A DNA stretch of 64,000 nucleotides, taken from positions 124,001-188,000 of the forward strand of contig NZ_VUNC01000004.1 of assembly GCF_009695875.1 (NCBI RefSeq), read 5' to 3'. The first letter of the stretch is position 1. The number at the start of each line of letters is the position of its first letter. The notes beneath the pieces were generated by a model. That model searched no databases and was not told the origin of the DNA. It saw only the letters and a program-made list of their open reading frames with translations. Both the position numbers and the translations under genes were made by a program. Shown piece by piece: positions 1,331 through 57,794 of the stretch. Source of the stretch: Olsenella porci. GTDB lineage: Bacteria > Actinomycetota > Coriobacteriia > Coriobacteriales > Atopobiaceae.

Positions 1331-1526
1331 TGCTTAGTCTTCCCCGACCTCGTGTTGATTTGTCCTCGCGCTGCTAAGCTCCCCCCCCCGGCCTCATGGG
1401 GTTTTCCGTCGCGCTACCCACACGAGGGCTAGCGACATTAAGCATCTGCCTCCGAAATCCGCATGAGGGCTAGCGATGCTAAGCAGCGTGCCCCAAAACC
1501 CACACGGGAGCTAGTGGAGCTAAGCA
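1331..1526. repeat. Array A of the 41-bp-period intergenic repeat (5 units)
   Basis: Five copies of a 24-bp unit start at 1331, 1372, 1421, 1462 and 1503. The first two are inverted (TGCTTAG...CCTCGTG form). The last three are direct (CACGAGGGCTAG...TAAGCA form). The period is exactly 41 bp within each orientation, with 17-bp spacers that are themselves similar (CTCCRAAATCC-like). The second inverted copy is stretched to 27 bp by a poly-C run. The same unit occurs near 11.3 and 29.5 kb. The gap 1064-1602 holds no convincing gene; apart from the terminator, this array is its only clear structure. Confidence 0.85.
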
Positions 1527-11274: not shown

Positions 11275-11648
11275 TGCTTAGGGATTCCCTGGCTTGCACG
11301 TATTGGAAGGCATCGTGCTTAACAAAGCCAGGCCTCGCGAATATCACCCATGTCGGATGCTTAGCAATCCTAGCCCCCATGCAAATTCCAAAGCACGGTG
11401 CTTAGCGTCACTAGGCCTCGTGCGGATTTCCGTCCCGGAAGCTTAGAGGTGCTAGGCCTCGTGCGAGCAAAGCGCCGAAAACTCACACGAGGGCTAGGTT
11501 TGCTAAGCATTAGGGCGACCAATGGACATGGGGGCTAGGTTCATTAAGCACATCCCGACCCCACGTGGGCGATAGGAACGGGTGCTTAAAACCTCCGGGG
11601 CCCGCACAGGCGCAGGAGGGGCCGTGATTAAAGACTCCGAAGCCCGTG
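11275..11648. repeat. Array B of the 41-bp-period intergenic repeat (about 9 units, orientation switches)
   Basis: 24-bp units begin at 11275, 11316, 11358, 11399 and 11440 in inverted form (TGCTTAG...CCTCGTG), with steps of 41, 42, 41 and 41. Two follow in direct form at 11486 and 11527 (step 41; CACGAGGGCTAG...CTAAGCA). Two more inverted, more diverged units start at 11583 and 11625 (step 42). Spacers are mostly 17 bp. Longest array in the window. No open frame runs through it and no cas gene is nearby. Confidence 0.88.
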
Positions 11649-29388: not shown

Positions 29389-29530
29389 GGAGCTGTGCTG
29401 GCATTACCCGCGTCAGCGGTTACCGACGTCGGCGGGATGTTCTGCGGGAGCAGCAAAACCACACCCGACCAAAGTGCTCGAAGAGGGGCGAGAGGGGCCG
29501 GCCTCGTGCGGATTATTGTCGCCCAATCCA

Positions 29531-29676
29531 CAAGAGGGCTAGCAAGATTAAGCAGACGACTCAAAAACCCGCATGAGGCCTAGCGATACTAAACAGGCGG
29601 CTCCAAAATACGCATGAGGGCTAGGGGGTTAAGCACCGTGCACCGCAATCAACACGAGCCCGGAGAAGGTTAAGCG
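29531..29676. repeat. Array C of the 41-bp-period intergenic repeat (4 units)
   Basis: Direct units start at 29531, 29572, 29613 and 29653 (CAAGAGGGCTAG...TAAGCA, CATGAGGCCTAG...TAAACA and so on). Steps are 41, 41 and 40; the one-base shortfall matches a one-base deletion inside the third unit. Spacers again read CTCAAAAACCC or CTCCAAAATAC. A worn inverted copy may lie at about 29474-29508 and a worn direct one near 29692. The 458-bp gap 29389-29846 contains no gene that I can support. Confidence 0.85.
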
Positions 29677-55419: not shown

Positions 55420-56138
55420 CTGGCGGAAGGTCGCCGTGCGAGCACTCGTGCAAGGCTTCCGCTGCCAATCAGGGTGGGAAAGGGACCGGTTTGACTGGGG
55501 CTCGCTCGCGTGAGTGCTCACGCGAGGCGTTCGTTGCCAGAGGACGAAGCCACATATGTTCCTTGAGCCGCCCACCTGGAAAACGTCGCTTCACCCGCAG
55601 GCCTCTCTTGACCACAAAGTGCTCACACGCGCTCCTCTACCAGAAGTGCCTTGGCTCCCGCCGGAAAAGCCCCCAATGGCCAAAGAGGGAAAGGGGCCGC
55701 GTCCTCTGTCGGAAGCTTCCCCGGGGACCGTGCCCTTTCCCTTCTCTGAGCCCTTCTATCGGCATGGGCCAGCATCAAGGGTCGAGCCGTGGCAACGGAT
55801 TCCCGATGTGAGCACTTTTGTCGGGCCATCTCCTTCAGACCGCGAGACGAGCGCCGAGTTTCTGCAGGTGATTGGGTCGCCTTGGGTCACCGGGGCCAGC
55901 CCATGGCAGCAAACTCCCGATGTGAGCACTCACTTCGGACTCCTCTTGCCAATTGGGTTGGAAGTCGAAACCAGATGGCGACGGGAGCCTGACGTGAGTG
56001 CTCACATCAGGCTTCGGCTGCCAGTGATTTATACCTGGAATCATGGCTGGTCTTATTACCTGCGGTTACGCTGAAATCAACCGGCCAGGGACACAGGGGA
56101 CTCGCGACGAAGGCACTCACATCGGGCGCTACATGCCA
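55420..56138. repeat. Cluster of about seven 48-bp dyad elements
   Basis: Dyad centres lie at 55443.5, 55515.5, 55620.5, 55813.5, 55927.5, 55999.5 and 56114.5. The best copies are 55904-55951 and 55976-56023. Each is 48 bp with outer arms TGGCA/TGCCA and a core of GTGAG-TG-CTCAC or GTGAG-CA-CTCAC; flanking CCTGA or CCCGA pairs with TCAGG or TCGGG. The middle dinucleotide is TG or CA, which gives each copy a direction; CA then TG neighbours are both exactly 72 bp apart (a-b and e-f). Copies at 55620, 55813 and 56114 are worn on one side. No gene lies in the cluster. Confidence 0.8.
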
Positions 56139-56306
56139 TGGTTTGAACTCCGATGCTGTCCGCAGGCGTCAAATTACGTTCAAGGGAAATTCGCTCCACG
56201 TCCACGGAGGCCCTCCCGTGAGATGGGCGGGCTTCCCCCTTCTTTGACATCCGATGGCCTTTGCCCCTCACCAACGGCTTCCACCGAGCGCGTTGGCGCC
56301 TGTCTG

Positions 56307-56453
56307 CTGAGGAAATGCGAGTATTGGCAATTGGGAAGGCCACGCAACTGAGGAAAGCGGAGTATTGGCAGTCGAAGACGCCTGTTTTCTGCCAACACTC
56401 GCGATTCCTCAGCGGAATCCGTCCGGAGATTGCCAACACTCGCATTTCCTCAG
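56307..56453. repeat. Array D: four 24-bp units at exact 41-bp period, two direct and two inverted
   Basis: Units at 56307-56330, 56348-56371 (direct; CTGAGGAAATGCGAG, then TATTGGCA), 56389-56412 and 56430-56453 (inverted; TGCCAACACTCGC, then TTTCCTCAG). Steps are 41, 41 and 41; spacers are 17 bp each and unlike one another. The whole 147 bp is a dyad centred at 56380. Aligned without gaps to arrays A-C, the units share TGAGG-N4-GCGA-N3-T-N2-GCA (13 of 23 positions), so they are a diverged branch of the same family. fprA starts 187 bases later. Confidence 0.9.
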
Positions 56454-56639
56454 CAGCTCCCGTTGTCGGACGCCGTCCTGCCCACGCAAACACGCCTCCG
56501 CACCGTTGTCATCCTCGACCCCGCCGCAGCCCGAGCCTTAATCGCGCCCAAGATCCCACGCGTCCCGTCGCGGTAGAATCGCGTGGACTATGTGTGAGCG
56601 GGTGAGAAGGAGTCTCTCCCCTTCCCAAAGGAGGAAGCT

Positions 56640-57794
56640 GTGAAGGTCTCTGACGACATCGCCTTCGTAGGCGTGAACGACCACAGGATCGACCTGTTCG
56701 AGGGCCAGTACGACGTGCGCGAGATCGGCATGTCCTACAACTCCTATGTGATACTGGACCAGAAGGTCGCGGTCATGGACAGCGTGGACGCCGCCTTCCG
56801 CGACGAGTGGTTTGCCAACCTGGACCAGGTGCTGGGCGACAGTAAGCCCGACTACCTGGTGGTCCACCACATGGAGCCCGACCACTCCGCTAACATCGCG
56901 GCGTTCATGGACCGCTATCCCGAGGCCCAGGTCGTCTCGTCCGCCCAGTCCTTCAAGATGATGCAGGCCTACTTTGGCGTGGACTACAGCGACCGCGGCG
57001 TGGTCGTGAAGCAGGGCAGCACCCTCAAGCTGGGGAAGCACACCCTGAGCTTTGTCGCCGCCCCACAGGTGCACTGGCCCGAGGTCATGTTCAGCTACGA
57101 CGAGACGGACAAGGTGCTATTCTCGGCGGACGCCTTCGGCAAGTTTGGCGCGCTCGACGTTGAGGACGACTGGGTCACCAACGCCCGCAGCTACTACTTT
57201 GGCATCGTGGGCAAGTTTGGCAAGAACGTCCAGATGGCGCTGAGCAAGGTCGCAGGCTGCTACGTCAAGGCCATCTGCCCGCTGCACGGACCCGTGCTCA
57301 CGGGCGACCTCTCGCGCTACCTGCGCCTGTACGACACCTGGTCGAGCTACCGCCCCGAGCAGAGCGGCGTGACGCTGGCCTACACCTCGGTGTACGGCCA
57401 CACCAAGGAGGCGGTGCGCGAGCTCGAGGCCAAGCTGCGCGACGGCGGCGCCACGGTTGCCACCTTCGACCTGGCGCGCGATGACATGGCCCAGGCGCTG
57501 GCGAGCGCGTTCCGCTACGACCGCCTGGTCCTGGCCACCACCACCTACGCCAACAGCTACTTCCCCTTCATGCACACGTTCGTGACCGACCTCGTGGAGC
57601 ACAACTACCAAAACCGCACCGTGGGCATGGTCGAGAACGGCAGCTGGATGCCCGTCGCCGCCAAGCAGATGCGCGAGGCACTGGAGGGGCTGCCCAACAT
57701 CGCGTTCGCCCACAACGTCGTGACCCTCAAGGGAGCACTCAACGACGACTCCCGCGGCCAGCTCGACGCCCTGGCCAAGGAGCTCCTGGCCTAG
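56640..57794 (+). CDS. fprA: Flavodiiron protein (FprA family)
   Basis: 384 residues from GTG at 56640 with AAAGGAGG upstream. Metallo-beta-lactamase-type di-iron domain: HHMEPDHSAN with His77, Glu79, Asp81 and His82, then QVHWPEV, FSADAFG and CPLHGPV. The C-terminal flavodoxin domain begins LAYTSVYGHTKEAV, which binds FMN. Reduces O2 to water or NO to N2O; in anaerobes it protects against oxygen. No rubredoxin domain is fused. Monocistronic, followed by a terminator. Confidence 0.95.
   Translation: MKVSDDIAFVGVNDHRIDLFEGQYDVREIGMSYNSYVILDQKVAVMDSVDAAFRDEWFANLDQVLGDSKPDYLVVHHMEPDHSANIAAFMDRYPEAQVVSSAQSFKMMQAYFGVDYSDRGVVVKQGSTLKLGKHTLSFVAAPQVHWPEVMFSYDETDKVLFSADAFGKFGALDVEDDWVTNARSYYFGIVGKFGKNVQMALSKVAGCYVKAICPLHGPVLTGDLSRYLRLYDTWSSYRPEQSGVTLAYTSVYGHTKEAVRELEAKLRDGGATVATFDLARDDMAQALASAFRYDRLVLATTTYANSYFPFMHTFVTDLVEHNYQNRTVGMVENGSWMPVAAKQMREALEGLPNIAFAHNVVTLKGALNDDSRGQLDALAKELLA

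Follow-up and report, generated by a model that had tools for sequence, protein, structure and literature searches.

The F1 array upstream of fprA

The window analysed here, a stretch of 64,000 nucleotides from Olsenella porci (contig NZ_VUNC01000004.1, positions 124,001 to 188,000), contains one intergenic region of 1.8 kb in which two repeat arrays of different families neighbour each other, F3 at 55445–56139 and, just downstream of it, F1 at 56305–56455. The downstream neighbour of the F1 array is an fprA-like gene on the plus strand (56640–57794), which encodes a flavodiiron protein and whose GTG start at 56640 is 186 bp from the end of the last F1 unit.

The F1 array consists of four units, two direct and two inverted (>><<), around a dyad centre at 56380, as a sequence-only reading of this DNA had described and as we confirm. 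Unit 1 (56305–56332, plus strand) has its 23-bp core, CTGAGGAAATGCGAGTATTGGCA, at 56307–56329, and unit 2 (56346–56373, plus; core 56348–56370) follows after 41 bp. The inverted unit 3 (56387–56414, minus; core 56390–56412) stands 42 bp after unit 2, and unit 4 (56428–56455, minus, also inverted; core 56431–56453) a further 41 bp on. The pattern of units plus spacing matched four times in the window but never in 100 shuffles, which excludes chance.

The same reading had set 24-bp units exactly 41 bp apart in a perfect dyad. The units are real, but the conserved stretch is longer, about 28 bp. The 24-mer starts stand as given (read in this way, the minus units begin at 56389 and 56430), while genome-wide the spacing takes several whole numbers of helical turns. 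The arrangement is perfect and the sequence is not, the outer pair of units being 96% complementary and the inner pair 79%.

The F1 family in the genome

The window array is one of 34 F1 elements in this genome. BLAST with it returned 37 matches in its own genome, and the strict unit pattern, applied genome-wide, matched 92 times against 0 for the reversed control, all 92 matches falling inside the 34 elements. A position weight matrix run over the fetched DNA counted 140 units in the 34 elements (genome size 2.36 Mb) and one solitary unit at C11:49156; in 20 unbiased 20-kb stretches and the window it found no unit outside arrays. The element list was seeded from similarity searches, and both the strict genome-wide pattern and the unbiased sample agree with it; the count is to be read as at least 34 elements, in one genome only. 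According to our analysis the unit is asymmetric, with the consensus TGCTGAGRAAWnnCGAGTnGTGGCAATC.

Most elements have the layout >><, >><< or >><<<, and both the number and the position of units at the ends of the elements vary. The elements are scattered over several chromosomal contigs, and none of the 34 occurs in 757 kb made up of C1:1-368k (with dnaA at 150k) and C8:1-389k. Their distribution is strongly uneven, with ten of them in C8:389-453k. Two near-identical elements, C9:161037-161199 and C9:163976-164190 (locus L019), flank one gene at a distance of 3 kb and make the clearest recent duplication.

Orientation and helical phasing

Two rules govern the F1 elements. The rule of orientation is that every forward unit lies to the left of every reverse unit, with no violation in 34 elements. 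The rule of spacing is seen in the 106 distances between neighbouring units, which fall at 40-44, 51-53, 62-64, 73, 84, 92-96, 103-106 and 147 bp and at nothing in between. These are multiples of 10.45 bp, and the residuals from n x 10.45 have an SD of 0.8 bp. In a scan of periods from 5 to 40 bp the 72 same-orientation spacings gave a vector strength of 0.916 at 10.47 bp, and the 34 convergent spacings 0.942 at 10.49 bp. Rayleigh p-values overstate this phasing because some elements are relatives, as the duplicated C9 pair exemplifies; taken alone, the 12 spacing classes still have R=0.945, and 0 of 5000 random sets reached as high a value. Measured centre to centre, the convergent pairs are in phase with the direct ones, and both orientations therefore present the same face of the DNA.

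The spacers follow no such rule. Conservation ends at the edges of the units, and between copies the spacers are mostly unrelated; few pairs of elements have them in common, for example C9:161037 and C9:163976. Several of the wide gaps (84-147 bp) hold decayed units at phased positions. Since spacing is quantised while spacers are free, the constraint on F1 is one of helical phase and orientation and not of 41 bp as such. The suggestion of selection on geometry under drifting sequence is thus supported as far as spacers are concerned, and the comparison of spacer length with spacer sequence comes out in the same sense, with spacing quantised at 10.45 bp and spacer sequence unconserved.

Gene context

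All 34 elements are intergenic, between convergent genes in 13 cases, tandem genes in 16 and divergent genes in 5. Stop codons lie within 120 bp of an element in 28 of 42 cases (null 12%) and start codons in 0 of 26 (null 26%). Genes were called with a home-made caller, and the null was a random sample; both null percentages are rough, since this sample contains some over-long intergenic stretches in which genes were probably missed. The zero itself is a direct count, and the nearest start codon is 121 bp away. Intrinsic terminators occur with much the same frequency at 3' ends that bear an array (7/28) and at other 3' ends (37/134); we therefore reject the idea that the arrays substitute for them.

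Genes beside the elements are functionally mixed. Among those that turn their start side towards an element there are several that look related to stress or redox functions, namely FprA, glutathione peroxidase, YaaA, a small heat-shock protein and MarR-type regulators. About 30 bp separate one F1 element from the end of L012:3613-5214 (C10:191613-193214), which encodes a protein with a C-terminal Wadjet JetD domain.

Relatives and the link to fprA

The location of the window array had invited a link to fprA, as the leader of this gene. None of 29 fprA homologues in the family (59-66% identity) has an F1 unit or a comparable array upstream, and the array is therefore not an fprA feature. The 33 sister elements, beside genes of mixed function, likewise speak against the link. 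The occurrence of fprA without the array, which the sequence-only reading had named as evidence against itself, bears on its fprA part only; the claim about geometry is untouched, because the F1 unit is confined to one genome. In 139 other family genomes the unit pattern was not enriched over the control as it is in the own genome (141 vs 26). Outside the own genome, neither the GTDB species genomes nor IMG/VR contained the paired pattern, the array had no match in phage and plasmid records, and a search for related loci via FprA gave one distant match only.

When stretches of four relatives were screened de novo for phased dyads, repeat clusters came up, none of them this regular in architecture. 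Two of the four, G017 and G077, have REP-like repeats of the type GGGGACGGG instead. The relative G148 carries a 33-bp palindromic repeat, GGGACGGTTCTC (TTCGACC-N19-GGTCGAA), which is always inward-facing in our sample (L112:1140-1417, on contig C21 of G148; L232, L239 and L240), and one array of it stands beside the 3' end of the G148 fprA homologue. Its phasing is not significant at the few copies available (direct pairs, R=0.67, n=6).

Other repeat families of the same genome

The second family, F2, comprises the arrays that had been named A to C in the window (1331-1526, 11316-11550 and 29529-29676) and occurs at about 20 loci genome-wide, with the motif CnCACGAGGnCTAGSnnnRYTAAGCA. Its units face outward in the register of the sequence-only reading, in steps of 41 bp and mostly with 44-45 bp at the dyad, and its spacing hardly varies by turns. 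The window F1 array had been taken for a diverged form of these arrays. We do not find this: F1 and F2 motifs are no closer to each other than column-shuffled motifs (p=0.44), and F1 units face inward where those of F2 face outward.

The third family, F3, is built of the half-unit TGGCARSAAASTCCCGATGTGAG, laid out as <<>><><< in the array next to F1 in the window, and has further arrays at C1:425178, C8:412559, C8:419375, C10:69327 and other places. Its arrays take layouts such as > 115 >26< 46 >26< 115 <, and the family is partly palindromic. Direct pairs are quantised at 10.46 bp (R=0.79), many of them repeating the same template. Helical phasing is thus found in this genome in two families that are unrelated to each other. 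Homology of F1 with F3 was considered and rejected on motif comparison (p=0.85). None of the three comparisons among F1, F2 and F3 is significant (p=0.44, 0.85 and 0.96), and the common geometry is therefore not a matter of common descent of the site.

A proposed mechanism and its alternatives

No process of RNA or of mobile elements is known to us from which 10.45-bp quantisation in both orientations would result. Such quantisation is what an assembly on one face of B-DNA requires, and from it we infer a cooperative, symmetric assembly of protein. Each asymmetric unit of about 28 bp would be one binding site of a single putative DNA-binding protein. Since the distances between the sites of an array are whole helical turns, proteins bound in either orientation would be aligned on one face and able to touch; since every site points inward, the complex would be symmetric about the dyad. 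Contacts between proteins across the array, either direct or by way of bent or looped intervening DNA, may then produce a compact nucleoprotein block at gene 3' ends. That proteins occupy one face of the arrays is, taken alone, very probable in our judgement. Towards the fuller proposal, in which a sequence-specific protein binds cooperatively and the resulting block serves as a boundary, we lean with some reserve.

The block would be a boundary or an architectural element, one that limits read-through between adjacent transcription units or constrains supercoils, and not a promoter operator. The avoidance of start codons together with the closeness of stop codons favours such a boundary, roadblock or architectural role over that of an operator. 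The sequence gives no sign of a terminator role, since intrinsic terminators are no more and no less frequent where a 3' end bears an array. At the 21 of 34 elements that lie in tandem or divergent gene pairs, the array may influence a downstream promoter. A search for the F1 binder by paralogue expansion, covering about 30% of the genome, yielded no candidate.

Regulators typically show helical phasing and cooperative arrays, and the F1 layout would suit a transcription factor with operators or upstream activating sites 120-400 bp upstream of start codons, controlling a regulon, perhaps one of stress or redox response, with which the several start-side genes of that kind would agree. We consider such a regulon rather unlikely, as 13 of the 34 elements are flanked by convergent genes and so face no start codon at all, none is within 120 bp of a start codon, and the remaining neighbours are functionally mixed; F1 lacks the start-codon-facing position of promoter operators and resembles their one-face cooperative sites in geometry only. 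Remnants of mobile elements, MITE or REP-like, non-autonomous and with several transposase sites at their ends, would also be dispersed, multicopy, intergenic and limited to one genome, and the few pairs of elements with common spacers could be read in this sense. Neutral copies are, however, not expected to have mostly unrelated spacers or to keep phase over spacings of 4 to 14 turns. The sequence between terminal repeats, which copies of a MITE have in common, is with few exceptions not common to F1 elements, whose ends differ in the number and position of units. The genome is without a Y1 transposase and F1 without a phage or plasmid match, and altogether such an origin appears improbable.

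A role at the level of RNA, as a large 3'-end stem-loop that acts as a bidirectional terminator or mRNA stabiliser, would be in line with placement at 3' ends and with the strong transcript folding that inverted units give to whole elements (mean z -7.4). We hold it for very improbable: stems have no need of 10.45-bp quantisation, the two arms often differ in spacing by whole turns (e.g. 104/52/93), nested pairs of units do not significantly exceed mixed pairs in similarity (p=0.09), single units fold no better than shuffles (mean MFE -3.94 vs -3.89), and a comparison with Rfam gave nothing near the gathering score. The 41-bp step common to F1 and F2 could suggest that F1 consists of functionless decay products of one old tandem repeat, represented by arrays A to C. 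This explanation, to which we give next to no probability, is contradicted by the phasing, spacer and motif-comparison results: the two motifs are unrelated, their orientations are opposite, and conserved units between free spacers are the reverse of decay.

Returning to the nucleoprotein block as our preferred explanation, we may suggest, as a tentative extension that we would not yet call probable, that two or more unrelated families of dyad-symmetric, phase-locked arrays are dedicated boundary elements at gene 3' ends, read by putative proteins, and would represent a class of chromosomal insulators not described before, in which the sequence of the site evolves fast and the geometry is fixed.

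The usual interpretation of intergenic repeats is as selfish DNA or as RNA hairpins. In F1 the sequence itself contains a physical ruler: 106 spacings in a single genome keep to the DNA helix even as the spacers drift, and phase locking of this kind can be used in any genome as a criterion to separate functional from neutral repeat arrays. It also gives a clear and cheaply testable prediction, in which insertions of 5 bp are set against insertions of 10 bp, and it makes the F1 array a handle for finding a new DNA-organising protein.

Comparison with known systems

F1 belongs with the dispersed intergenic repeat arrays, which are a known kind, and in the open-access literature we found no earlier description of phase-locked ones. 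Helically phased operators and looping sites (lac, ara, NtrC enhancers) occupy one face of the helix and tolerate whole-turn spacing, at the promoters of one or few genes. F1 shares with them the single face and the whole turns; unlike them it is spread genome-wide, away from start codons, and always faces inward. Sites of the matS or parS type are short single palindromes for one chromosomal protein, dispersed and unevenly distributed. F1 is similarly dispersed and uneven along the chromosome, and the single binding protein proposed for it would extend the likeness, while its multi-unit phased arrays set it apart.

REPs and BIMEs are dispersed, species-specific intergenic repeats in both orientations, with proposed roles in chromosome organisation and termination (PMC2817692, PMC3733652). 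Most REPs lie on the downstream side of genes, where the flanking ORFs are co-directional or convergent (PMC3733652). Their units are imperfect palindromes associated with RAYT (Y1) transposases (PMC2817692, PMC3733652); they bind DNA polymerase I, and in BIMEs, which bind IHF and gyrase, they are regularly spaced in alternating orientation (PMC2817692). F1 is likewise dispersed, extragenic and of high copy number (34 elements, 140 units), and its preference for stops over starts (28/42 against 0/26 within 120 bp) is the same downstream-of-gene placement. The F1 unit, however, is asymmetric and forms no hairpin, its MFE when single being equal to that of shuffles, and the REP tags GTAG and CGTC occur, on both strands together, in only 5 and 4 of 140 units. 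In place of the alternation of BIMEs, all 34 elements follow the order >..>..<..< and are phase-locked. The Y1/RAYT profile PF01797 had no match in the own genome, while control matches were obtained in 5 of 14 genomes. With no palindromic unit, no alternation and no Y1 transposase, we reject membership of F1 in the REP/RAYT group.

In L5-like (cluster A) mycobacteriophages, stoperators are single 13-bp sites of the phage genome that lie between genes, are asymmetric and oriented with transcription, and have been proposed to stop its elongation (PMC9283540). F1 resembles them in having many asymmetric intergenic sites. It differs in being chromosomal, multi-site, dyad-symmetric and phase-locked, with units of about 28 bp that occur in both orientations within each element, whatever the direction of the neighbouring genes, and it lies on several chromosomal contigs with no match in phage records. 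The likeness to stoperators would be one of functional analogy and not of membership.
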